The notes below the pieces were generated by a model, which was not told where the DNA came from, ran no database searches, and saw only the letters and a list, made by a program, of their open reading frames with translations. A stretch of DNA of 64,000 nucleotides, from NCBI GenBank assembly GCA_029204225.1, contig CM055095.1:43427184-43491183 (forward strand), in the 5' to 3' direction. The translations under genes were made by a program, and so were the position numbers. Within the stretch, counting starts at the first letter, position 1; every line of letters begins with the position of its first letter. Below, one piece after another: positions 6,446 through 57,300 of the stretch. Source of the stretch: Diphasiastrum complanatum. Its lineage: Eukaryota; Streptophyta; Lycopodiopsida; Lycopodiales; Lycopodiaceae.

Positions 6446-8480
6446 TCAAGGACTGAATATAGTCAGTCGAACTCTCCACAAGATTGAACAAATGACATAC
6501 TTCAAGTTCATTGATCTCTCGGTAGACAAATGGAAGAATAAAGACGACTATCTTATCAACACCGTAAACGATAATGAGTTGGCTGCTACTTGCGCATATA
6601 TTACCCGATATACACAATGTCATAGCTCCTTGATCAGACGTATTCCCATGACACTATTCCACATGATAGCTGATTCCAGATGACACAACCTATGATTGAG
6701 CACAATTCGTTTCAAATTGTCTGCATGATTGTATCTGAAGCAAGCAGCCCATTACCTACCTAGGATACCTTTGACAAATATCACTTTACAGCAGCTCAGT
6801 CACCATTCACATGTTCGAGATAACTTGCTGCTCGCTGACAAAGTCTGGGAGATACTTGCTGATCAGACACCCCAATCTACTACAAAGCTTGCATCACACG
6901 ACACCATGGCAACATCGTCTCAAAAAAGGAAAGGTGCAGCCTCTCCTAAAGGACCAGTCTCAAAACATGTCAAGACAGGGCCAGCAAAGCTTCAACTACG
7001 CAAGGCAACCACCTCCTCTACGTCTCAGACAAAGGATCCATCTGCAGCCAAGTCCTCGACTCAACCGCAATCCACCATAACACAAGTCCAACCACCACCA
7101 CAATCCAGGTCAAAGATGCTTATGTCGCACCATGCCTCACCTGACAAAATAGAATCGGACGGTACGGAGTCAGACAACGACTCCCAATACACAAGCTCGT
7201 CCACTCATACGGCATCACACCAATAGTCATCACCACCTCACGACACAGATGCTGCAGGCACATCCTTAGCAACAGACACAACTGTAGTGGACTCCCAAGA
7301 AATTGCACCAAATTCAGTGGTGACTCCCCCACTACTCGTCAATACGTAGACACCACCACATGCAACACAAGAACTGTTAACTCTAGCAGCTCAAATGACA
7401 ACAACCACAGACACACCACTTGAGCTACCCAAGGCCATCGACGCTGACACGCAACCCTACCACAAACCACCATTTGGGGTGGGGGGGGGGGGGGGGGGGG
7501 GGAGATGGGAAGGACATTCCCAAAGACACAGCAATGGAAGCAACTACAAGTCAATAGAAATTACTTCCATTCCATATCATCTTGGATGATTCAGCTTACT
7601 TCGATGCTGAAGACTTGATCTAGATAACAAATGACACCAACGAGACGAATGCAAAACAGCCTGGGGGAAGCTAGTACTCACCAGTTATTTGTTGCCACTT
7701 CCACTCAACTTCCCAATCCATCGATCACTCATGTTCCCACCACCACCATCTCTAGTCTTTCATCATTGCCTCTACCACATCCACCCACTCAAACCCCCTT
7801 CTTTGGACTATCGCCACTTGGCCACACCATCGATCATTACCCCACCATTCCTAACCCTGAAGAACTTCCAAATGCGACTAAGAAATCCATAATAAGCATA
7901 TCTGAGACCATATACCAACTACACTGGTTGGTGAGCCAACACAAAGAATTGGAAAACCAAGTCAACCAGCAGGAAAAGTTTATATCAAAGCAGCAGCAGC
8001 AGATAAAAAAAAAATACGAGGTTGAGGAGAAAAAGATATCACTCATGGAGCTCTCATGGAGCTGCAAGCCACTATGGGCAAGCAAGCCGACGAACTCAAT
8101 GCAATTCAAAATCAACTTAAGCAACAAATGAGCCAGATCGATCGTTTGATGCAATGATAGTTGACACGCCTCCTGTGAAGCCGAAAGACATCAAAGGTGC
8201 AGCTCCCTCAGGCCCTCGCAATACGAATGGAGAAATACATTAGGCTTATTCAAGAGAGAGAGACTGACAAGTTAAATTTTGAACGAGTTGCGGCGAAACA
8301 AGAGAAGGTCATTCTAGAGTCCCAGAAATAGTTGGTAGAAGTGACGAAGGCCCAGCAATAGGTTTTGGACAAAGTGAACCAGCTTTGGAACACTGCATGT
8401 AAAGCCCAACCAAGAATCTATGATCAAAAACCAAGGGACAACGACAGAGATAACGATGATGCGGAGATACGATGGGCTTG
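6446..8480 (+). pseudogene. unidentified P/S/T-rich and coiled-coil coding remnant
   Basis: A series of plus-strand frames joined by stops: 6432-6683, 6729-7226 and 7631-8131. The first is an ordinary globular-looking segment. The middle is rich in Ser, Thr, Pro and Gln. The last has heptad-rich Glu/Gln/Lys sequence (EKFISKQQQQIKKKYEVEE) that should form a coiled coil, and coiled-coil sequence continues to about 8400 in shifted frames. The order fits a gag-like or element-specific structural protein of a retroelement. No zinc knuckle, protease or RT is attached, so the family is not assigned. Confidence 0.3.
7481..7502. repeat. poly-G tract (22 bp)
   Basis: Twenty-two consecutive G after GGGGT. 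It creates an artificial polyglycine or polyproline run in the overlapping frames. Confidence 0.8.
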
Positions 8481-9749: not shown

Positions 9750-10800
9750 TCCCCCTCCCTATGTTTTCACCTTAGGCATTTCATTTGTGCCCCATGGTAC
9801 AGTCACACGGCATTTGGGCTTCAATGTTTTGTCTATAAGCTAGTCTTTTAGGACTCTCACTTCATGTCATTTACGTCCATGGTTCTAGTTGTCCACCATA
9901 TTTTAGTTACCTATTCGGTCTTTTTCCCTTCCATCTTTGTTGCCCCCAAAGCCCTCCACAATCCCCTCCCTACTCTCCTTCGTCGCTTCCTTTGGGCTGG
10001 CAAACATCCCCTTGTTTCTTGGTCGGTCTGCGTGGCCACCATGGTTGATGGCATCCTCGACATTCTTCGTGCTTCGTCGCATCTCCTCCTTGGTCCACCC
10101 TTCTCAACACTGGCACTCCCTTCTTCTCATCTATATGACTTATGTTGTTGCCATTTGTCCTCTCCTTTCCTAAGCTGCTTTCCTTTGGTTGCTCCTTCCA
10201 CTTCAAAGGACCCTTTTGTGAAATATTACTTTAACCTTCATGGAGTTCGTCACCTCCTTTGTTGGTCCCCTCTTTTATGTCCATCCGCGCCTGTCTCTTG
10301 CCCTGTCTCGCAAAGGCCTCTCACCATGCTTCATCAGCTCATCCTTGTTCCCCCTTGACATCTCCTCTCGTCTTCTTCTCTAACTACTAATGAGCACTCT
10401 CTAGTCGATTATGCTTTCTTGTCTATTCTTGGCTTCCGTATTTCCCATGACTCAACCATCCTAGATGGCTAGGAGCCTTTTCTTGTGCTCCTTGTCTATC
10501 ATGCTTCTCACTACCATCATTATCCTTCTCTCCTTCCAGACTTTTTCAATACTCGTTGGTCTGACTTTGACTCCTTTCCCATTTGGCACAAAAGATTTCT
10601 CACTGCCCGTTCTCTTCTGGTAGGAAAACTTAGATATTTTGCTTACCACATCCTAAACAAGTCTTTTTCTCTCTTGGCCAAATGGCCCTTCCTTTCTGAT
10701 CACCTCTGCCCAGTTTGCCAACTAGAGGAGGAGCACCTATTCTTTCATTATCGCTGGGATCTATGCATTAGAGAAAATATGGGCCCCAAAGAGGGCCCTA
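9750..10800 (+). pseudogene. LINE (L1-type) 3' end remnant
   Basis: A frame within 9864-10358 has RFLWAGKHPLVSW, like the F.W.G......VSW..VC segment that follows the RT of plant L1 elements, plus a degraded ..GGLGI-like motif. A second frame (10485-10817) ends in FSLLAKWPFLSDHLCPVCQ followed by EEEHLFFHY, the zf-RVT type C..C...H zinc-binding end. Stops and frameshifts separate the parts. There is no clear poly-A tail. Confidence 0.5.
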
Positions 10801-10970
10801 TAAGAAATGCTATGTAGGATAGAGAAAAATAACTATAAAGTAGTTATAGTATCATTTTCTAACTTCTTTATGCATCTGCCCGCACTCCTTTCCATGTAAA
10901 TGAATGCACCTTAGTTTAGTCACATCAAACTTCACTGGTGCTTAGCCAAAGTTAGAATATAATTTTCAAA

Positions 10971-11780
10971 ATGATGAGATATTCCCTCCCAAAAGTTGGA
11001 AACACTCAAAAATTTGAATTAGGAGTGATCTCTGAAACAAAGTCTACGCCATCTCTATCTCCAGGGTCAAACAAGTGTTTAGCACCATCACTATCTCTAG
11101 CAGAGTTAGCGCCATCTCCAACTTTGTTATTGTCATTGTGTTGTTTGTTACTATACTATTGTATTGATGACAAAGCTTTATCATCTTCATGTGGTTTCAA
11201 TCACCAGAATATGCTCCGCTCAAGACAAGAAATTTAAAGCAACCCAAATTGACAACTTCTAATATGGTCCGATACAGAGAGGAAAAGCTAAAGCATGTAG
11301 ATTTATGGTCATCGGGAACATTGTATCCTATTGATCCATGTTCATTGCAACATCCGGATCTTCATTCAGTGAGTCAGTTAATAATCTATATGTGTCATGG
11401 GAAAAATGGTCTTTTGGGTTACTGTGAGAATTTGATGCTCTATGGGAATGCACATTCAATGCAAAGAATACATTATTTGGAAAAGAAATCAAGGAAAATA
11501 TCAAAGGAGTGCGAAGAAAAATCTACAAAGTTGAAAACTTGTTTGGATGAAAATGAGATGCTCAAGAAGGAGATCGCAAGGTTGAAATCTTCTTTGCATA
11601 TGAGATAAAAACTGCATTTCAATCCATGCGTATCTCATATTTGTCTCTTGTTAAAGATATGGATGTGCTCAACAGAAAGGTCCAAAGCAACAAGAGAAAA
11701 AGACTGTAACCAAGGATATATGTGATCTATTATCCAAAGGAGGTCATAGAAAAAGACAAATCCGTGCATTTAAGTAGGTT
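10971..11780 (+). pseudogene. coiled-coil ORF at the 5' end of the transposase-like gene
   Basis: The frame at 11189-11608 encodes a globular stretch, then a strong coiled coil (KKSRKISKECEEKSTKLKTC and onward). With one frame change, coding continues to about 11780 (KDICDLLSKGGHRKRQIRAF). It lies in the same orientation and directly upstream of the transposase-like exons, so it may be their N-terminal exon. No GT-AG join in phase could be fixed between 11780 and 11941. Confidence 0.35.
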
Positions 11781-11940
11781 ATAGCTTATTTGGTATTAAA
11801 TATTGCTTGAACTTTTTGATTCATCTATAATCTCTTGTTTTATTATTTATTCATTTCAACTTTCTATTGATTTTCTTATTATACTGCTGTGAATACTATG
11901 AGTGTCAAAATTTCTACTGACATTTTCATGAACATTATGT

Positions 11941-13601
11941 TTGCAATGCGGATCAGCATTTGTTGTTGAAGACCATTTGGCTGATGAGATTTTGATTGGA
12001 AACTCACTAGGCTCTATCTTGACTTCTAAATCTATGAAATCAATGTTAAACAATAACAAAATGAAAAAGATTAAGGCTTTAGTTATTGATAGCATTATGA
12101 ATGAAGTTGAAAAAATATTAGACACAACATTGCTTCAAGGGGCATGTGACTTTTCTAGCATTAGTAGAGAAGCATATGCAACAATGTTTAAGATGATAAA
12201 GGAGGCATTTGCACATGTAAGTATTAAAAAGTTTCTAATCCCACGACCATTTCATCTTTTAAGAAAAAAAGACATGTTAAACCAAGGTATGCAAACAATA
12301 GTTGGTAATCCATCTCATATCAATGAAGTGTATTGCTCAAAAGGAGAAAGTCTAGCATATAACAATTCCAATAATTTATTTATTGACATTAATCAGTTAC
12401 TAACATTCATCATAAATTTTTACGGTATTACAAATGAGAATGTCAATAACAAGTTGATAGTTGTTCTCAAGTTAGATGAGTCTGAAATCATAAAAAGACA
12501 AAAAATAGAAAGAGTCAATCTCACGATAATAAATGGAGCACTTTCAAATTCAGAAGACTTAGAAGGCCTCAATTTCAGGGTTCAATCAGAAAATGATATC
12601 TCGTGGTTGGCAGCATTTCAGGTATAGCAGTTCCTATCAATAGGGATAATCATTTTAATATGGATTTCATTTGGAAAATCTTCTCTTTGTTAATATTATG
12701 AGGCTAATCATGTTTTTGTATTCTCTTATAGGTGATGAAAGAAGACCATGACATTCTCTCGTGGATATTTAATAGAACATCATATCATGCCACCATAAAA
12801 AATCACATGGAGGGAGTTCCACTCAATATTCCTGGAATTGGCACTTTCAACATTGAATGGCATTTAACAGGAGATGTGAAGATATTAAAATATATGTTCA
12901 ATATATCACATGGCACTAACTCTAAACACCCTTGTCTGTACTGCATGAAGACAGCAAAAGACATGACAAGGAGTACAGGAATATAAAGAGATCGAGAAGA
13001 TCCTAATTGGAAACATGTACTACTGATTCCTCTTCAAAATGTTCATATCTGTACATTGCATGCGAAGGTGCGTATTATAGAAAAATAATCTATTTTCACA
13101 TCTTGTTTGCATGGAATTTCGAGTCAGAGGCCTCTGCGAAGGAAGCTATTTCTAGATTAGAGGATGTGTTGTCCAAAGAAGGCTTACATAAAGGCCACAT
13201 TAAAATTAAAAAAAAATGACAAGCTATCAGGTAAAACAAGAAATATTCCATGCAAGCTGAGCATTGGAGGACCTAAAGCTCGAATATTTTTATCAAATTA
13301 TTCTGGCAAACAATCCAAGATTCAATACACAATTTGGAAAGAAAATATTGCAACAACTCAAGATTTCGAAGAAGAAGGTTCTACTCGTATACACAAAGTA
13401 GAAGTTTCAAAAAAATTAGACAACATGGTGAAATACTTGAGAAAAGATAAATTTTCAAATACTGATGTACAAACGATACAGAAAACAACCAGTGAATTTG
13501 TGGATGTAGTTCAAAGTGCATGGGGTTTAGATCATATAACACATTATATGGTAAAATTTCGATGTTACACTACTATAGACAAATATGTGCAATTAAATTA
13601 G
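11941..13601 (+). pseudogene. DDE-type transposase-like gene, spliced and mutated
   Basis: Exon one (to 12621) ends SWLAAFQ. A 110-bp intron (12622-12731, GTATAG...CTTATAG) joins in phase to VMKEDHDILSW. Visible conserved-looking blocks are VVLKLDESEIIKRQKIERV, then EWHLTGDVKILKYM, then SKHPCLYC, then LIPLQNVHICTLHA, and last WGLDHITHYM. The spacing of an Asp in a KLDE block, a second Asp in GD.K.L..M and a nearby CxxC fits RNase H-fold (DDE) transposases of DNA transposons; this is my inference. A TAA at 12984-12986 and a frameshift at the A-run near 13205 break the frame. The part after HITHYM is lost. Confidence 0.55.
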
Positions 13602-13974
13602 ATACTTTTGGTACTGATTTAGACTATGTTTTTATGACATGCAACACATATTACGACATCATTCGACATTCTTTGCAAAAAATAGTGAAAGTCTTAGCAT
13701 TTGGTCATCGCAAGGAATGGAAAAATCTCATTGAGCAAGAGCGGCATTTCATAAAAGTACACAACATGGCGGGACTAGCACAAAAAACAGTTATATACTA
13801 CAACTTTTTCAATGATTTTATAGAAGAATCCAAATTCATCATAATACAAAATCGACGGATTATAAAAAATTTCAAAAAGCATGCAAATTTATACAAGCCA
13901 ATAGGCAATCGACACACAATAAAATTTTGTATATTAGATAAAAATATTTACAAATTATAATTGAACAGTATCCA

Positions 13975-15290
13975 CTATGCTTTCGATACTTTCTCTAGTG
14001 AAAGTTGCAACTTAGAATCATGCAACAATTTGCTTCTTTCGTATGGATCCAACAACTCATAGTTTTCATGCTTACTCAGATCAACGTAAGCAGCATACAA
14101 TACAAAATGAGATGATCTGAACATGAAATTCACTGGTCCATATATTAAAATTTTAACCGCAATGGTTTTCTTTACAAAAATAATTTTATGCACCTTATTA
14201 AAATTATGTCCTCCAATAAAATGAGACAGTGCCTTGATTGTCATAATCATAGTCTCACCATGTTGATGAAATTTTGAATGGACAACACTTATCTCATTAT
14301 TTTTGAAGAACTTCAGATAGTGTCTCAATGCATGATCTCTTGAAAATTCTCAAGCAGAAGATCTTTGTCCTCCTCGACGAATTGTGAAATCATCAAGGAA
14401 AATTGTTTTCTGAAATGGGAAAAAAATAAAAATAAAGTAAGCTTTAGTATAGTCTGACATAATGAATCTACTAGTACATGATAAAATACAAAAACTTACG
14501 CATTCAGCTTTGTCTTCCCTGATTACTGTCTCTCCATCAATATTATGTCCACCTTTCTATGTCAATATTGTTGGTGAATAGACATTTGGTTGTGGAAAAC
14601 CAAGTTGACTTTGGATTCTGAAAAACTCCTCCTCAAAAGATAGATCACCTTCTTTGTTGCACGTTTCCTCCACAGCCATTTTCAAGCAATCTTTCCTTGA
14701 ATAAAACTTATCATTATGTACATCGTCAATACCAGAGAGAAGATCATCAGTATCAAAATCAATTATATCCAAAAATTCATCAAGCTCTTTGTTCAAAATG
14801 CAAAGATTCTCAACTTTAGTGAAATAAAAAAGATCCGATATATTTGATATTATCAAAAAAGAATTATTATCTATATTATAAGTAGGCAAAGTGATCAAAG
14901 ATGTATCAGAAGGAGAAAGGATAGTGGGTGTTTTAGGGCCTATAAATGATGTCCTATTTCGAGCAGGATCAAAATCTGAACAATCATCTAAATTAATGCT
15001 TGTATCAATAAAAAAAAGTATGTATATCTACAATGTTTGACTTTTTAAACTTTGTACCATTGGAAGAAGCATTTTCAGAAGTGGAAGTCCCAGCTTCCGA
15101 ATCGTCAGAAATATTTAACAAAAGAAAAAACAAATGCAGACCGAAAATCAACAAATCTACATTTTTTATTGTGAATTGGACACTCGTCTACAGACTTGAA
15201 ATCATTATGTAACTTGGTGAATATTCTGTCAAGCTTAGTTTTATAGCTATGCTTGTCGAGTGCCACCAAATCTTGATAATGAATCATATC
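13975..15290 (-). pseudogene. acidic spliced gene of unknown function, convergent to the transposase-like gene
   Basis: Minus-strand coding starts near 15285 and shifts frame once near 15110. It runs through a Ser/Asp/Glu-rich region (SDDSEAGTSTSEN, DFDTDDLLSGIDD) to DGETVIREDKAEC. A clean intron (GTAAGT...CCCATTTCAG, about 14501-14411) joins to KTIFLDDFTIRRGG and a final basic, aliphatic segment ending LSLEKVSKA at 13975. Two in-frame stops and the frameshift make it a pseudogene. Only 374 bp separate its end from the end of the transposase-like homology. I recognise no domain. Confidence 0.45.
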
Positions 15291-15572
15291 CTTTTATTCT
15301 GAGATCTGAATAACGGAGTATTGAACAGAGACTTAAATCTGAGATATATCTCAGAAAATGTCTCCACACCAAGAATAACAACGGTATCGGTATCGATACC
15401 AGAACTGAATATCGGTTTCTTTTATGAAAATAATTTGTGTATATCTTGCGCTCAAAACCGATATTCAATTCTGGTATCGATCTCAAACGCTCTCTGATCG
15501 CAATCTTTTTTTGTTTTCATTCCATGCGCTTTTGTTCAAAGTTTATTTTTTTGATTTTTTTTTTTGAGAATG

Positions 15573-16047
15573 ATGGCCAGGACCAAATCCACTGCCCGTG
15601 CCATAACCACTGTACAGCCATCCCATGCCCGTGTTTTTCCTGGTACTGGCCGTAGACGTGGCAAGAAGCAGGTTTGGATGAGGGAGATTAGAAAACTCCA
15701 GAACTGAACTATTGATCCCTATAGCTCCTTTCAGTCGATCTATCATAAATGTCACTCTGTCACTTGGGCTAAATTTTTGTTCTGTCATGACAGCCATGCA
15801 AGCCTTACAAGGTGCTGCAGAGGATTTTTTGTCCCAATTTCTTGAGGATACCTATCTTTTGGTAGTACATGGTAAGCATGTCACCATCATGCCAAAAGAT
15901 TTCATCATTCTCAGAAGACTTCGGGACCGTTTTTCTGGTCTGCATGTTGATAACGCCAGCACCTCCAGAGACCTGCTCTGGATAGAACCAACTTGCCGAC
16001 TACCTCTAGCTGGAAAAGGAAGCAACCTATTCCCAAGAAAGCTCTAG
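15573..16047 (+). pseudogene. histone H3 domain, centromeric (CENH3-like) type, one frameshift
   Basis: ATG at 15573 opens MARTKSTAR, the canonical H3 N-terminus except that K9 and S10 are Ala and Ile. It continues through a short divergent tail into VWMREIRKLQN (the αN helix). A TGA at 15705 marks a 1-nt insertion or 2-nt deletion. In the next frame the fold resumes: ELLIPIAPFSR (α1), QALQGAAEDFLSQFLEDT (α2), VTIMPKDF and RRL (α3). LIP.APF, AAEDFL and KDF...RRL are centromeric-H3 signatures; canonical H3 has LIRKLPF, AAEAYL and KDIQLARRI. There are no introns, whereas plant CENH3 genes have several, so it is a retrocopy or captured cDNA. A non-histone extension follows and may lead into the protease downstream. 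Confidence 0.7.
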
Positions 16048-17491
16048 AGTTATCCTGGCCAAGAGACCCCGGATCGCCTTGAGCTCTGAGTCAGATGCTG
16101 GAGAATCTGATTCAGATCGAGAATCGTCACCCCTTCCTTCTCCTGTTATTCGTTTAGCTCCTTAGCATGTTTCTTCACCAAAAGTGTTGATTACCCAAGA
16201 GGAGCTCAACAAAATAACAAAAAATTCTGTAAATATTGTATCTACTCTTCTTTTTTCTCCTGTACATAATCTTTTTGTTAGAATTCCATATGATCCTGCC
16301 CAAGTTTATTTTGATTCTGAACATTATAACCAGTACGAGGCCTTCCTAGGTAATAAAATTGATCTTCTCAGCAATTTTTTTGATTTTTTTTTTCCAAATT
16401 TATGTAAAAGCTTTAGATTAGGTCCCAAATTTTGTGTCGAGCTGAAAGATAAAACATCAGAACTTTCAAAATATAATAGTAGAAGCCGAAGGATTTTTTT
16501 TGCAGAATAGTATTAGTTTCGATTCTCATGGTATAGTTTTTGTTCTTAGTCCATTTTTCATGGAGGCAATAAAGGCAAAAGAAGCCGATTTTGAGAAGGC
16601 TGTATATTATATCGAATGCAGTCCTGTGGCAAAATTTTATTTGATTCCATATGAAAATAAGTAAGGATTGCTCTTTTGTTTTTGTTGTTTTAATATGGAT
16701 TGTTGCATGTGGCATTGCTTTAATAAGTACGGATTGCTTTAATAAGTTTGGATTTATCGATATTTGTATTTTGGTTGTTGCAGTCGGCATTGGAGCTTGA
16801 ACATTATATTAGTAAAGATAAATAAGGAGGGAGTATCAAATTTCTATGTATAAAATTAAACTCAGCTGCAAATACACATAGAGAATTTGATTCTCTACTT
16901 TATAATGTCGTTCAGAAAATACCGACAACGGCAACCTCAATTGGAGAGATAACCATAGATCTCTCAAGGTATATTCAATTTATCTTTGATATACATGTAT
17001 TCTTTTTTAGTTCAAATCTATCATCATAGCATAAATAAATTTTCTATCATAATATTACTAATTTTCGTTCAATATATGTAGTGTGTATAGCAAAAGAACT
17101 CTTTTAGTTGTGCATGGTTCGTCCTGTACAATATGAAGTTATTTTTTGAGTGGTATACTTTACAAGTGGATGTAGATATTGAAAAGGTAATATTCTATTC
17201 ATTTGTAGATCCTTTCATTCTAATTCATATTTCTTTACTATCATTGTTTGTAATTTGCTGATTCTCGTGTTTTGTGATGACATTTCACTCTTGAGTCGTA
17301 TACTCCTGACGATGTATATAGATTTCGACAAGAGTTGATCAAAACCTATGCTCAGAACGGTGTAAGCGTTGCACCTAAGATCGAGGGCCCTAAAAAACAA
17401 GCTACTCCTGCCTTAATAGCCTTTCAGATTGTTCAGGATGTAGATCTTATTATATATGATAAAAAAGGAATAGAAGTCCTTCCTAATACAG
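16020..17491 (+). pseudogene. Ulp1-like (C48) cysteine protease gene, spliced and mutated
   Basis: A basic and acidic linker (AKRPRIALSSESDAGESDSD) leads into a frame to 16510, with one TAG near 16163. A second frame reads VFVLSPFFMEAIKAKE and KFYLIPYEN. A GT-AG intron (16661-16783) joins in phase to give PYENNRHWSLNIILV, the IP...HW.L block with the catalytic His of Ulp1. Later exons carry NTHREFDSLL, then QKNSFSCAWFVLYNM, matching the Q.N..DCG.FVLYNM block with its catalytic Cys (Asp and Gly changed). Last comes SYTPDDVYRFRQELI, like the Y..EDI..FR.E. end of plant C48 domains. Such proteases desumoylate or process proteins, and plant DNA transposons often carry them. Stops and shifts show decay. 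Confidence 0.6.
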
Positions 17492-17832
17492 AGTAAGACG
17501 ATATTATAGTAGAGAGTCCTCTTGTCTTAAAAGGCATAGAGGCTCTTCCCGAAATAGAGACAAGATTATAGAAGGAGCTATTCCCTTATCAGTTCCTAAT
17601 ACTAATAAAGAAAGTATAGAAAAATTGACTAAATAGAGATCTATTTGTAAATAGAGATACATCAAAAAAAAAAAAAAAAGATACATGTAAACAACCCGTT
17701 TATGAATTTTTTTTTATTGATATCAATATAGATTCTAACAATCAGGTTGTGTCCATAGTGTAATACTGGAATGCAATTTTCTATATTGATAAAAAGACAT
17801 GATGATTGGCATGTATTTGCTGATAGTGAATC
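17492..17832. other. intergenic, convergent gene ends
   Basis: AT-rich with a 17-bp A run near 17666. It separates the protease gene from the minus-strand gene below. No gene seen. Confidence 0.5.
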
Positions 17833-19324: not shown

Positions 19325-20480
19325 AAATTAACTCTGGTTAACCATGTTAACCATGATTTGACAATGCATATACATTAATGGTACATCGATTTTCTCATCT
19401 CAACCATCTGTCATATTCATTTTCAATATTTTTGGGTCTCTTCGGGTAGTGATGAGCTGGAAGGGCAGGCCTCATCAACCAATAGCATTTCCACATGTTG
19501 CCCGACGAAATAGCAATATATTTTAATAGTTTTTATTTTATTTATATTTGGAAAATTCTACGTTACGTAGAACCCCGATTTCAAGGTTTCAATTGGTCCA
19601 CATGGCAACGAAATAAGAAAAATAAAAAATAAAGCATCTTTTTCAAAGGCCCTCTTTGGGCTCTAAGTTTCTCTAATGGTTGGAGGTGGCACATCTTCTT
19701 CGTCGTTGGCAATTCCCCTTTGGCAGTTAGCAACATTCTCACATATTCAAAAGCACTCCTCACTTATGTTTTGGCATTTTTGCAGGCTCACGGTTCTTTG
19801 GCAAATATGATTGATATGGAATCAATAGGTTTACTTCCCCCGATCACATCAGTGTGCTACTTCTGGCTTGCTATGTACTTGTTTTGCCATTTAGCTGTGT
19901 TGGTAGGGTGCGAATTGTCCTTTTCTCTATTGTTGTATAGTAAACCCTTACGGGTTCTTTCACAGTTTCACCCATGGGTTGCTTGCACTCTTTGTACTTG
20001 TTCATTTGTGAGTATCTTAAAGTTTTGCAAAAAAAAAAAAAAAGCTAAGCAATTTTATTCTATGTATTTTGACCTTCTAAACAAATTTTGTATAACGAAC
20101 TCTCAAACTATGTACTCTAGAGATGTGCTTCTTGGAAACTGCCGAATGCTTTGTTGCATACCAACTTATCGAAGCATCTTTCATGCATAGATGAAGCTTC
20201 GTATTAGAAACATTTAACATAACCACACCATTTTTTTAAATACTTGCTACCAATTACTTATTCTAAATTTTCCAATTGTCTTTGCCACTTCATGCACACA
20301 AGCTTTTTACAAAACAATAATCCATACTTACAAGGATAATCTTCTAAATGTCAAACTTTATAGAGCGTAATATCATAAATCTAGGAAAATAGTCTTCTAA
20401 CCTTCATAAAAGAGAAGCAAATCATCGGTTCCTTTGAAACTATTAGCCATTATTTTGCTAATATCATAAATGGGTATGTA
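19325..20480. other. no confident gene
   Basis: A short inverted repeat GGTTAAC..GTTAACC lies near 19334 and TTCTACGTTACGTAGAA near 19556. An open plus frame (19720-20190) is hydrophobic and contains a lysine run from a poly-A tract. I do not call it a gene. Confidence 0.4.
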
Positions 20481-20714: not shown

Positions 20715-20726
20715 CAATGGAAGGGG

Positions 20727-20809
20727 CCGGGCAGAGGCCATTCTGCCCGGTACGGGCCTCGCCTAAAAAAATTCTTGAAAACCATGAGGGCAGAATGGCC
20801 TCTGCCCGG
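20727..20809. repeat. 22-bp perfect inverted repeat (strong hairpin)
   Basis: The arm at 20727-20748, beginning CCGGGCAGAGGCC, is exactly complementary to the arm at 20788-20809, with a 39-nt loop. It contains the word CATTCTGCC, shared with the adjacent MITE. Confidence 0.75.
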
Positions 20810-20995
20810 CTCCTTCCATAATACATCATATTTATAATGAAAGTCAGATCTACTCACAATTAAAATCGTTATCGGCTTTTTGAATAACTTTATCACTTTT
20901 TCAATATTCTCACAAACTTCAAGGTGATATACAACATCAAGGTAAACCAAACATTTGAATTAGATGCATGGTGACAAGAGTACTTTTTCAATGAC

Positions 20996-48396: not shown

Positions 48397-51300
48397 CATT
48401 TTGTAAGTGTAACTCATATGAATACCCTTTGGTGATCTGCTAGGTGTGTGCAGCATTTAGCTTATTGTATATAAGGTTGAATCTTGACAAACTGATCAAA
48501 AGTCCATTCAAGAAATCAGAAGAAGATGATGGCAAAAGTGCAACCAAAGTTGCTGAAAGGTTCAAGGAGGTTGTGTTGAAACTTGGGCCTACTTTTATTA
48601 AAGGTAACATAAGCTAATACTCATTAAATTTCAGCTAATTTTAGTATTGTACTAATCACCCAAGATTACATTCTTCCTTCCATTTAGTCTCAGATGGTGC
48701 ATATAAGCTCCCCTATTTGAAAGTTAACTTTGCATTTCACACGTTAACTTTGTTTAAGATTTTCCCATAGCTACAATTACTAATGTTTGGCTTCAGTCTT
48801 ATCAATTGTCTCATGTGTAGGATGTTAATCATATTTGCATGCTCAAGTAGCTGAATCCATTTATGTATATGTTTTTAAACTGACCCGATTATCAAATTGT
48901 TTCTCAATGAAAGGAAGGTGTGTTGCCATTTTTACATAATCAAATCATCAAGGTAAGGAGTCAAGTTATCATAATTTGGAAGCCTTTTTCTTACGCTGGA
49001 TATTCAAAATCATTTTAATGTGACCTATCAAATCCAAGACGTGATTCAAACAATGAGGACTATTGAAGTAGCATCCATGTAATTGGTCGAGAGCATTTAA
49101 AATAACAGTCTCCTAAGCATGGTACATGCCTAATCCCTTAATCACTCAGTGAAGGTAGGTAAACATCTTGTTGGAACTGCATTAGTCTCACTCACATGTG
49201 GTTGGAAGTTGCTGAATAGTTCTGATAACCTTCTCAAGGCTGTATTCTTATTTGATGATTTGTAGGATAGTTCACATTAACGAGCTTTTTTGGCATCCTT
49301 GAACAAATCATATAATGACTTGAGCTACATTTCGAAAGAATATTTTTTTTTAACAAAATTCTCAATGAATCTGACTTATCATACTTATACTTATCAATAG
49401 TTGTGACTCCATGAGAGATGTTTCTATAATAGTCCAAACTATAGTCATATGATGTGGGACCTTTTCATCTTGCTACATTGGGGCTGGCTATCTACATATG
49501 TGCAACTGAGCCGCACAACTATGCTAGTCCTTCGCATAATTCAGTAGACAGTACAACAGAGTATTACATAATCCATGGTTTTAGGAAGTCTTCCCCAACT
49601 AGGCATGAGGCATATTGTGCACCAGTATACCTAGTAGAGTAGGTTAAAGTTTGGTAGCATTTATGCCTGTGAATGGAAGGGCCACGATCATGATGTACAA
49701 TATTTTACAAAAACTACCTTCCCGCAGGGACGGAAACCAGGAAATAGTATAACTGATGCAGACATCAACATCCGTCCTTACGGTCCTTAATGGTTTCAAG
49801 TGACTCAAATTGCAAGTCATTCTCACCACTTAAGTTCACGTGCGAACCTTTTTGAGATTATGAGAGCCCATAAATGCCCATCTAACAGGCTCATCTATGA
49901 GTTATGTTTTGGCATTTTGAATGTTGTTTCATAGAATACTCTTGTGGCAAGTTTGGTTGTTGGATGTCATTGTGAAGCAATCTATTGTGAATTTGTTGTA
50001 TTCTTTGTTGGAAAATCATCATATGACGCGGTTACTTCGTGTGTTGGTGGTGCTATTCTATCCATGTATTCATGGTTGGTGGCTAATTATTAGTCCATTT
50101 CGTTCTCTTTACAGTGGCTCAGTCATTGTCAACACGACCAGATTTTATTGGTCCCGATAGTGCAAAGGTAAATGCTATTTTGGGTTGTTGCACTAATTAG
50201 TGTACCCTTTCATTTCTAGTAGTAACATTGATACTTATGTTGAATTTAAGTAGATTTTTTCCATTTAGGTTTCTGCAGATTAAATTTCTACTTATGTTGA
50301 CAAAGTTCCTGGTGCCCACATCAGGTGATTGCTTGCTTTAGTTCCTAGTAGCATCTTTGGAGACACCTCTTTGTTCAGATATCTCCCCTTCCAAACCTTA
50401 CACAAGCAGTCCTTATATTTGTAAAGCAGGTTTTAGCAGAGTTGCAAGATCAGATGCCTCCTTTTTCAAATCAGGAGGCCATGGGAGTCCTCGAGAAGGA
50501 ACTAGGCTTTCCCGTGACGAATATTTTTGAATACTTGTCAGAAGATCCTATTGCAGCTGCATCACTTGGGCAGGTATATATTGCACTTCCATCTTTAGTG
50601 TCATTATTTCTTGCTAAATGCCAAAGGATTGGTAGCGATACTGGTTTCTGGTCAAGGTTCTAGCTGAACATTTTAGTTGCTTGTTCTCTTGTATCTCTTC
50701 CTATGATATAAATGGTTATCCCTTAGAAGTTATGCAAGAGCAATTAAGTGCAAGATTTTTTGTTTCTAAAATAAAGTTGTCTTGGGTTCAATAATAGGTC
50801 TACAAAGGGCGAACGAAAGATGGTCAAGATGTTGCTGTCAAAATTCAAAGGCCAGATGTCCTATATTCGGTTTCTTGTGACATTTACATTCTTCGTCTAG
50901 GAGTAGGCTCTGGACTTGTGGTTTTCTTTCTAAATGAGATTTTAAGTAGCAAAAAAGTTATGCATTTTTGTGATGGTCTATAAACCTTTGAACCTCCACC
51001 TTTTCTCTCTTAAGTTTTGACATGCTTGTCTTGAGAAAGATTTGAAAAACAGCCTGCAAACGTAACCCATATATGCATTTCTATGGCATAAGGTTGATCC
51101 TTCTGCATTGATAGTACATTCTATGGAATTTTTATACGTGCTTGATTAAATCATGTCGTATGCACAATGGAACTGCTTCTAATTATCTGTCCAATTTCAA
51201 GATTTAGAATATTTTTAGAATGTATGTGTTGTGTATCTTTAGATGCATTTACAGAAGTGTTATGGGCTTTGAGACTTTTAGAAGCAATTTTGCATTATAG

Positions 51301-54300: not shown

Positions 54301-57300
54301 CTACAGGAGAGGCTTGTCCATCAGGGGGGTCAATTGGGGGAAGGCCTACTGAGGTTAGTGGCCTAGGTTCAGCAGAGGTGGTAGTTTCTATGGCGGCTAT
54401 GGGAGGTGTTGGGGAGAGATCACAAGCTGGAGCACACTCATGCCCTAGAGTCAGGCCATGACCACTTGCACCTACATAGGCAGGGTGGGCAGATATTGAT
54501 AGAGCACAGTGCCTGCAAGGTGGCAGCGGACACACCATGAGGTAGCCACCAAACTTACACGCTAGTGGTTTTTGACAATTGCTACCTTGCATTTGCCTTG
54601 GCCAACACCACCATCTTTTGTGACATGATGAGGGAGATTGTAGCCTGTGATGCCACTTGGAGACCCCCCACATGCAAGGCTCTTCATACTCGCCATTTGA
54701 GAGAGGAGTATGCATGCATCACAAGAGAGCTTAGCCCCGTACGACATGGCTGGGCCACATATGGTTGCTCTATTCTATCGGATGTGTGGATTGATATTTG
54801 GCATAGGCCTGTTATAACATGTTGGTTTCATGTCCGTTGGTCACTGTTTCTTAGGGGTGTGGATGCTTCCCGAGTTAGCAGTGTTGAGTTGGGAGAGTTT
54901 ATTTATGAGCATTTACGTGCAGTAGTCATCGAGGTGGGGGCGCAACATTTAGTGCAGGTGGTCACTGACAATGCCAGCAATTGTGTGGCTATGGGTGAGC
55001 TTTTGGAAAGAGACTATCCTCCTATTGTATGGACCCCGTGTGTAGTACACTACATCAATCTTTTGATGCACGACATAGGAGGCCTCCCTTGGGTTTCCAC
55101 CATCACATCCCATGCCATCTTTCTTTTGTAGCCAGGAAGAAGAGGGCCCTGGCCTTGTTCAGGACATATAGCCTCCTAGATCTGAAGAAGCCAGCACCCA
55201 CATGCTTTGCCTACCACACTGTCATCGTGTTGGAGTGGTTGCTTCGACTTGCATACGCCAGATGGCAGCCAGCCTTGAGTTCACATAGTGGCATTGTAGT
55301 AGAGAGCCAATTGGACTTAGGTTTCAGAGGATTGTTTTTGGAGATGATTTCTACAGGCTGAGCAACTGGTTGAGGTCTTGCAGCCAGTGGACCGTCTCAA
55401 CTTCATGGAAGACGTTACAGGATATCTCATCCACCAGAGGCGGTCCAAGAGAGGTACTTGTGCCAGAGCACAAATGAAAGAAAGGAATTGTCTCAAAATT
55501 GCATTTTTTGAACGCTAAGGTGTTGCACACAAGCTCACAAACCCTAAGTAAATACACATAATTACCCAGCAAATCCGTCACTTTATTAATCTCAAGCAAA
55601 TGTACATAGATCAGCAAGCAAACATGAGAGCTCTGCTGCAAGTCTCCTCCCAACCAATGCTGCATAGGAATACCATAATCAGGAATGCCTGACAAGGCTC
55701 ACACTATATCCCCTCAAGCACCCCTTAACCCTGACACATCCTTACGTCGACACATGGCAAACTCCATGCACAATCGACACTTGCCACTTGGCAGTACCCT
55801 GACACATAGGCAAGCTAGTAGGTGGACAGTCTGACAAGTGTCACTCTGCATTGGACCAAGTGTCCCAATGAGCATATGACACATGTCCTGTTGACCCGTC
55901 CATTGACCGTCCGACAAGTGTCACTCATGCACTGGACCAAGTGTCCCAGTTAGCATATGACACGTGTAATGTTGACCAGTCAACCCTTCCTACTTTTTAG
56001 GAGGTCAGTCCAGCAGCAGACTCTCATGAGACCTAGTACCCCCTTGGCCATCTCGGATTTAGTCACTATAACAGATATTTACATTGCAATTTACAATTGT
56101 CTCCACAGGCCGGTGACTTAGCCATTTACAATTTAATAATTACAATTTACCATTTACATTGGGCAAGGAATTCAAAGTACATGTGACTTGAGGTTGGTTG
56201 ATTGAGAGGGTTCTACGCTTGGCCTCATTTATGAGTTTATGGACAAGATTAGGGAGACCCTTCAGAGACCCTTTTTTGATGAGCGGAGATATATATTTTT
56301 CTAACTTGCTTGGTGCATCTGTTTTGTAAAAATGTTTTAGCATTGTTGAGTTGTTTCTTTTGCAATGAAATGATTATTTTTTTGGTTTCTATAGGATGTT
56401 GATTATCCAAGAGAAGTGGCTTGACCGATGGAATTTCTTCTACAAGTCCATACATGCAGTTGCTCATTTGCTTCACCCTATGTGGGTTACTGGAGCCATA
56501 CCCACAGACGCTGAGCCTGTGGACAGTTGCAGGACATACACGCAAAATGTGTGTCCAGGTTAGGGTTGTGCCCCAAAAGGGCTATCTAATCCATTTCGTT
56601 TTTAGCACTTGTCTAATTGTCAACACTTTTTGTATGCTTTTTGATGATTTATTCTTTCAAGAATCTGACAATGTCCCTTGTTTTTGTATAGGTCATGCCC
56701 CCCTTGTTGCTTAGGATCGAGAGACAAATGTTGAATTTTGTAAGCAAACTCCAACAATGGTAGGTATGTCCCCCATCGAGTTTGCTTATCCCCAACAAAT
56801 GCCCTAAGCAATATCTCTAAGGTCTAGCTGACTCTCTCAGTTTGGCCATCTATTTGAGGATGCTCCATACTGCTCATTCTCAATTGGACTTCAGTTTGTT
56901 CATAAATGTACTCCAAAAGTTCCCATTAAATCGAGTATCCATGTCAGACACTATGGATGATGGTAATCCATGAAGTCTAAACACATGCTCAATAAACATG
57001 CTAGCTACTCCATATGCATCTATCTTTTTACGTGTTGGAATAAAGTGAGTCACCTTACTTAGGCATTCCTCTGACAAGTCCAATAGACCTCAACAACCAA
57101 GATGATCCCCTTCACGTAGACTTTTCTTAAGTCGAGTTACGTGAAAGACCGGGTGTACCTGAGTTCCTTCCGGGAGGTCTAGTTGGTAAGCCAAAGATCC
57201 TATCCTTTTCAGGATTTTATATGGTGCTCTGTATCTAGCGGACAGTTTGTAATGCTTGCTGATATGCATTACATTTGAATCCTTTGGGATTTGCATTTAT

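Follow-up and report, generated by a model that had tools for sequence, protein, structure and literature searches.

Structure of the element

The window, that is, the whole stretch of 64,000 nucleotides of contig CM055095.1 of Diphasiastrum complanatum analysed here, carries between positions 10766 and 19678 a decayed DNA transposon of 8.9 kb with the termini 5'-CATTAGAG...CTCTAATG-3'. Its ends are imperfect terminal inverted repeats of 47 nt (10766-10812 / 19633-19678), and between these lie a transposase, two minus-strand genes (A and B), and an H3-like domain that reads into a C48 (Ulp1-like) protease. The features are given below; families A, B, and C and the loci numbered with L are related copies in the genome, described further on.

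10766-10812, no strand: left terminal inverted repeat, CATTAGAGAAAATATGGGCCCCAAAGAGGGCC..., in local alignment with 19633-19678 (score 40)
11201-13559 (11201-11599, 11731-12624, 12732-13559), plus strand: decayed transposase exons, from tblastn of P0001-P0007 and motifs
13496-13960, plus strand: probable final transposase exon, an open frame with a 31-41% match in six of eight family-B loci (query Wtnp4)
13975-15027, minus strand: gene A, with an acidic stretch; WmA1/WmA2 match in six of eight family-B loci, with place and strand unchanged
15392-15481, no strand: 27-nt inverted repeat, 96% complementary, with a 36-nt spacer, between divergent genes and upstream of the H3 start
15573-15930, plus strand: H3-like domain with MARTKSTAR tail and H3 fold (Pfam, PDB relatives) and one frame change at about 15682-15705
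15931-16165, plus strand: basic and acidic linker (KRPRIALSSESDAGESDSDRESS) with a frame change at 16008-16047 and TAG at 16163; open in L028 and L034-L041
16166-16660, plus strand: N-terminal part of the protease region, with a frame change at about 16497, ending in IPYEN at intron 1
16661-16783, plus strand: intron 1 (GTAAGG...TTGCAG), at equal position and phase in L016
16784-16968, plus strand: C48 exon 2 (RHWSLN...), with the Asn of KLNS at the expected catalytic Asp site
17091-17187, plus strand: C48 exon 3, QKNSFSCAWFVLYNMKLFFEW, with Gln six residues before Cys and a one-base phase lesion at the junction
17293-17497, plus strand: C-terminal extension YTPDDVYRFRQELIKTYAQNGVS...; a comparable stretch lies behind exon 3 in L037 and, less clearly, in L016
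17750-19220, minus strand: gene B, with WmB1/WmB2 matches in families B and C
19633-19678, no strand: right terminal inverted repeat ...TTTCTCTAATG, pairing with 10766-10812

The score of the terminal repeat pair was reached by none of 1000 Markov-shuffled flank pairs, and the same flanks in direct orientation scored 27. In a first count over segment pairs, 10 of 351 were as high, the pair itself included. The ends were accepted on the basis of the shuffle test together with genome copies that have the same ends: a near-identical left end is present in the family-A locus L028 at its position 2053, and the first 8 bases are common to the ends of family-B copies.

WmA1 of gene A matched L028 at 77%. 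WmB1/WmB2 of gene B matched seven of the eight family-B loci at 42-58%, plus one short piece at 64%, and 8 of the 11 family-C loci at 29-38%. No Pfam family was found above its cut-off for gene A or gene B; RNA_bind, BLYB, DUF4292, and other weak Pfam matches of these genes and of the transposase were under the cut-offs and were rejected. The arms of the inverted repeat at 15392-15481 have no occurrence of comparable score elsewhere in the window; the repeat may be a promoter element acting in both directions or a binding site for an element protein.

LINE-like reverse transcriptase and zinc-knuckle readings at 9852-10817, recognized by eye and giving no Pfam match, reach the left end of the element, which may for this reason have been inserted into a LINE. 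A hairpin with 32-nt arms and a 39-nt loop (20717-20819) lies directly outside the element. Farther away, the window contains an exon of a host ABC1 atypical kinase (50352-50660; Pfam 1.7e-12) and a DUF659 reading (54541-55128; Pfam 5e-34), a domain typical of hAT transposases.

Transposase and classification

Seven relatives of the transposase (P0001-P0007, 30-61% identity) were present in the protein database. The motif set of this family consists of LKLDES, WHL.GDLK, CxxC, and THYM, and the window reading has LKLDES at the first D, WHLTGDVK at the second, CxxC 20 residues past the latter, and HITHYM. All six relatives covering the CxxC motif share it with the window. The ITHYM motif, which is HxxH-like and not H(3-4)H, is present in the window and in five of the six relatives that reach it, P0006 having ITFY. 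The family gave no Pfam match above cut-off and no PDB sequence match. When a model of P0004 was compared with known structures, RAG1 and Transib ranked at the top, the model itself being of low confidence (mean pLDDT 49, pTM 0.36); against BFVD the transposase model gave no match at E <= 1e-3. No relative was found in IMG/VR (five queries) or in a GTDB scan, and nothing matched in phage and plasmid collections.

For the CMCT clade, C(2)C together with H(3-4)H motifs, mostly 5'-CA..TG-3' ends, and target-site duplications of 2-5 bp have been described (PMC12730594). Termini of the form 5'-CA..TG-3' are present in the three copies with both ends, namely the window element, L016, and L026. In none of these three was a target-site duplication found, where 2-5 bp would be expected of a CMCT element, and for this reason the element is described as CMCT-like and is not called a member of the clade.

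The H3-C48 reading of the window copy

The reading MMARTKSTAR... begins at 15570/15573 and, after the frame change at about 15682-15705, stays open to 16045. The joined reading matched Pfam Histone with 69.2 bits (5e-19; cut-off 26.4), and the unjoined piece 15682-16047 did so by itself at 3.2e-13. The closest solved structures are those of CENP-A (up to 70.3 bits), followed by canonical H3 (60-64 bits). The H3 domain that the preliminary description had recognized by the signatures LIPIAPF, AAEDFL, and KDF...RRL and by its almost canonical MARTK.TAR start is thus real. The same description counted one frameshift, which holds for the H3 part but not for the linker and C48, where further lesions were observed: a frame change at 16008-16047, TAG at 16163, a frame change at about 16497, and phase lesions near the later exons. 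A single-sequence model of the H3 half was uninformative (pLDDT 36.6). From 15944 to 16616, the frame of linker and C48 contains no ATG; shuffled versions of 16008-16510 were free of ATG in 5.9% of cases.

The C48 part of the window copy scored below the cut-off of Pfam PF02902 (18.5 and 16.9 bits versus 20.7), and in a control with six shuffles another family was matched at E 0.026 at best. Taken alone, this match is suggestive only. The assignment is secured by the relatives, as the spliced family-B reading L016 matches at 37.9 bits (E 2.2e-9). Both blocks noticed at the outset, HW.L and SCAWFVLYNM, are present in the window, and the proposal of a spliced protease was borne out by a GT-AG intron at 16661-16783, ahead of both blocks, which by eye has the same place and phase in L016. 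In QKNSFSC, a Gln stands six residues ahead of the Cys; the expected site of the catalytic Asp is by eye occupied by Asn (KLNS/KMNS) in both families A and B. Caspase matches of the C48 part in the PDB had E > 0.4 among the matches listed and were taken as chance.

Searches of the protein database with the H3-C48 reading (7645 candidates) and with H3 alone (17 candidates) gave nothing at E <= 1e-3, which is no sign of rarity because ordinary H3s were absent as well.

Related copies in the genome

A Histone search of the same 1.74-Gb genome from which the window was taken yielded, among 150 matches scored of 6325 first-look candidates, 13 near-canonical H3s of about 164 bits, followed from 110 bits downward by a long list of dispersed copies. 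Twenty dispersed loci, picked for their long open H3 frames, were fetched and fell into family A (one locus, L028, of the window type), family B (eight), and family C (eleven, L022 being placed there by similarity). In 19 of the 20, another element gene was present within 10 kb; L015 is a fragment of about 2.1 kb with H3-C48 only.

Using as a query the 293-aa L028 protein, which covers H3, the linker, and the beginning of the protease region, 134 family-A matches were scored of 8594 first-look candidates, the locus of the query itself (100%) included. They are 72-100% identical, nearly all span most of the query, and they are spread over many large contigs; 20 of the 134 are free of stops. Several pairs have equal scores and may represent duplicated stretches or alternative contigs, so that the independent insertions are fewer than 134. 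Eight family-A gene regions (L034-L041) were taken from the stop-free matches besides L028. L041, which is nearly identical to L040, was left out of the dN/dS estimates and kept in the exon counts.

The family-B copies are 83-95% identical and have a sharp common right end, with CTCTAATG closing six of the eight loci. Four copies were examined for the left repeat CATTAGAG; L016, L024, and L026 have it, and in L013 it was not found within 800 added bases. These same four of the eight loci have the gene order of the window, i.e., transposase (+), gene A (-), H3-C48 (+), and gene B (-), L024 with C48 exon 2 only. In L025 the order is kept without C48 exons and in L012 the transposase is inverted, both loci being counted; in L015 and L027 the element is cut short inside the fetched stretch. 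With terminal repeats, a transposase, and the same gene order in other copies, the early view of the block as mobile is confirmed. Family C has the order gene B (+), H3 (+), gene A (-, a weak match), and transposase (-), with all four present in L020 and L023.

Three further observations concern single loci. The region 2053-9457 of L028 contains the window-type left repeat, a right end of family-B type at 6474, and more transposase, H3, and C48 pieces, and appears to consist of nested or recombined elements. A window-type terminal sequence, CATTAGAGAAAATATGGGCCCTATAA, is located at 1695 in L022 near a family-C copy, so that families A and C may have ends in common. In L030 (G000:C13:7457001-7459500), a fourth reading of H3 type (D) was seen; it reads MARTKQTAREPQR... 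and has an insertion, a frame change, and a divergent core, LLLLRAPF.

Fusion of H3 with the C48 protease

The reading of H3 into the protease, broken in the window, is open in cleaner copies, and the fusion that had been proposed from the window alone was thereby established. In L034, H3, linker, and the N-terminal part of the protease form one frame of 369 codons up to intron 1, followed by the HW and Cys exons. In all eight family-B loci, one open frame runs from H3 through the linker into the protease region, and in six it reaches the exon end; this end at intron 1 is the same as in L034. The spliced reading of L016, a copy with the terminal octamer of the window element, matches both Pfam Histone (8.5e-28, 97.5 bits) and Peptidase_C48 (2.2e-9, 37.9 bits) in one protein.

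C48 exon 2 was found downstream of H3 in seven of eight family-B loci and in five of eight family-A gene regions (L034, L035 in part, L037, L038, and L039). Exon 3 was found in six of eight family-B loci (64-73%, query WC48c) and three of eight family-A regions, with other sequence at its place in L036 and L040/L041. No C48 exons of its own were found behind the H3 of L028, where other element pieces follow, and the partial L034 reading without exon 3 gave no Pfam C48 match. The refuting condition set in the preliminary description, copies whose protease never neighbors H3, therefore fails in families A and B, where exon 2 lies downstream of H3 in most copies, and holds in family C, with C48 found in none of the 11 loci. 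As predicted from these copies, H3 forms the N-terminal half and an Ulp1-type C48 the C-terminal half of a spliced protein in families A and B.

The family-C locus L020 scored 96.0 bits with Pfam Histone (cut-off 26.4) and has, in this order, MAWTKQTARDP, SR-rich and proline-rich sequence, and the H3 core. H3 is thus the module common to the three families found, to which A and B have added the protease; all loci were found through H3, so that relatives without it would have escaped. Since C48 was found in none of the family-C loci, the protease would not be essential to the role of H3 in that family.

Conservation of the H3 core

The cores of families A and B are 61-64% identical at the amino acid level, with pN at 0.29 and pS at 0.79-0.90, the silent sites being saturated; the core of C is 43-50% identical to that of A or B. 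The H3 core is under purifying selection between families. Within families, dN/dS of the core was 0.41 (A) and 0.20 (B) and that of the linker with the N-terminal part of C48 was 0.61 (A) and 0.58 (B), values that are biased because H3 score or the absence of stops decided which copies were used.

Residues R52, R69, H113, K115, R116, T118, K122, D123, and R129 are kept in all five element rows compared. Residues for DNA contact and for the tetramer are among them, and their presence suggests that the element H3 is competent to form nucleosomes. R63 is replaced by Pro in all five rows, and R49, R72, and R83 are lost in some.

Proposed function and alternatives

It is fairly probable that the decayed transposon, whose transposase has a predicted RAG1/Transib-like fold, encodes an H3 variant which is fused to C48 and carries the protease to chromatin, either against silencing or for transposition. 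The H3 half would pair with H4 and enter nucleosomes, or bind H3 chaperones, and would thereby act as a tether that brings the protease to chromatin. The protease could there remove SUMO or act on another substrate, and deSUMOylation might weaken silencing of the element or aid its transposition. An H3-fused SUMO-type protease suggests that the element manipulates the packaging of host DNA, and family C points to an action of H3 without the protease as well. A chromatin-tethered protease is preferred because Ulp1 recurs in plant anti-silencing transposons and because there are precedents in transposons with TET/JBP and SET genes. VANC/KIU genes with Ulp1 in Vandal elements have been tied to hypomethylation, although the function of Ulp1 in them is stated to be unknown (PMC13317346), and where DNA transposons carry VANC, SET, or TET/JBP genes, these have been read as countering silencing (PMC12730594).

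A more far-reaching version, possible if on the doubtful side, is that a plant transposon lineage has domesticated a centromeric-type H3 as its typical accessory gene, SUMO-protease-fused in two of its families, with which it makes its own nucleosomes and a private, silencing-resistant chromatin, either on the element or on its targets.

Rather doubtful is a role outside nucleosomes, in which the H3 module would be a decoy that titrates H3-H4 chaperones or mimics the ARTKQTAR tail and so blocks enzymes of silencing. It would fit the first residues, which are MARTKxTAR-like in A, C, and D (MAWTKQTAR in L020) and weaker in B (MDRRKQTRR), and also the replacement of the remaining tail, in C by SR-rich and polyproline sequence. 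Several of the DNA-contact and tetramer residues are kept, however, and for a pure tail mimic these would be superfluous.

Deposition of an element-borne CENH3 at centromeres, which would steer insertion to these sites or exploit centromere identity, is unlikely. The CENH3 likeness asserted in the preliminary description stands for the LIP.APF motif, which is shared with plant CENH3s. Counted by eye, loop 1 (PF.R to the ALQ/AIQ of helix 2) is 21 residues long in the window reading and in families A and C, the length found in H3, and 22 in family B. The CENH3s compared have 22 or more residues in this loop, family B being as long as rice CENH3. CENH3s have RW or NW at the Trp site, or RY in maize, whereas RF or HF is found in A, RF in B, and RV in C. 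In a tree with reference sequences, families A-D and plant CENH3 fell on one side of a branch with support of 88/92, a leaning below the usual threshold, and AU tests rejected neither a placement of A and B with canonical H3 (p 0.067) nor one with plant CENH3 (p 0.17). In the tree including cleaner copies, the window copy grouped with the family-A copies at 99/97; when the decayed window copy was the only one included, the tree gave no resolution. The spread of matches over many of the large contigs might speak against a centromeric target. The element H3 is best described as an H3 variant that may descend from CENH3.

It is hardly credible that a processed pseudogene of a host H3, or a chance neighbor of an unrelated Ulp1 element, is present here. 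Such a reading would fit the lesions of the window copy and its sub-cut-off C48 score, but fused copies with shared terminal repeats and introns occur genome-wide, in high copy number and in the context of an element, and the window H3 is just 38-39% identical to human and Arabidopsis H3.

If the element protein does enter chromatin, selfish DNA would supply its own nucleosome, a new route of escape from silencing that is made directly testable, and would perhaps be a source of odd H3 variants. Transposon copies can also inflate the number of H3 and CENH3 genes counted in genomes of this kind.

Comparison with known systems

Plant CENH3s resemble the element H3 in the LIP.APF motif, in the H3 fold, and in the MARTK start. 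The element H3 differs from them in the short loop 1 of family A, the lack of the Trp, the C48 fusion (A and B) or proline-rich insertion (C), and its dispersed, multicopy occurrence.

The CMCT elements (EnSpm/CACTA, Mirage, Chapaev, Transib, Plavaka, ESTA, and Lanisha, with RAG1) share with the window element a transposase fold predicted to be of RAG1/Transib type, a CxxC behind the second D, and 5'-CA..TG-3' termini. The window element differs in having THYM as its H motif and H3 as cargo, without a target-site duplication and without a Pfam or PDB match of the transposase.

The transposase of Vandal is of a type other than that of the window element. Vandal MULEs with KIU (Kaonashi) are likewise plant DNA transposons with Ulp1 in an accessory gene, the Ulp1-carrying VANC gene (PMC13317346). 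Their effect is hypomethylation of related elements, and the word "histone" has 0 occurrences in the review (PMC13317346). DNA transposons bearing TET/JBP or SET genes likewise have a cargo for chromatin or DNA modification with a proposed role in escape from silencing (PMC12730594). No transposon family with a core-histone homologue was found in searches of the open-licence PMC literature, judged by titles and abstract beginnings. Transposons with DNA- or chromatin-modifying enzymes are already known; the cargo of the TET/JBP and SET transposons consists of enzymes, whereas that of the element described here is a core-histone homologue itself.
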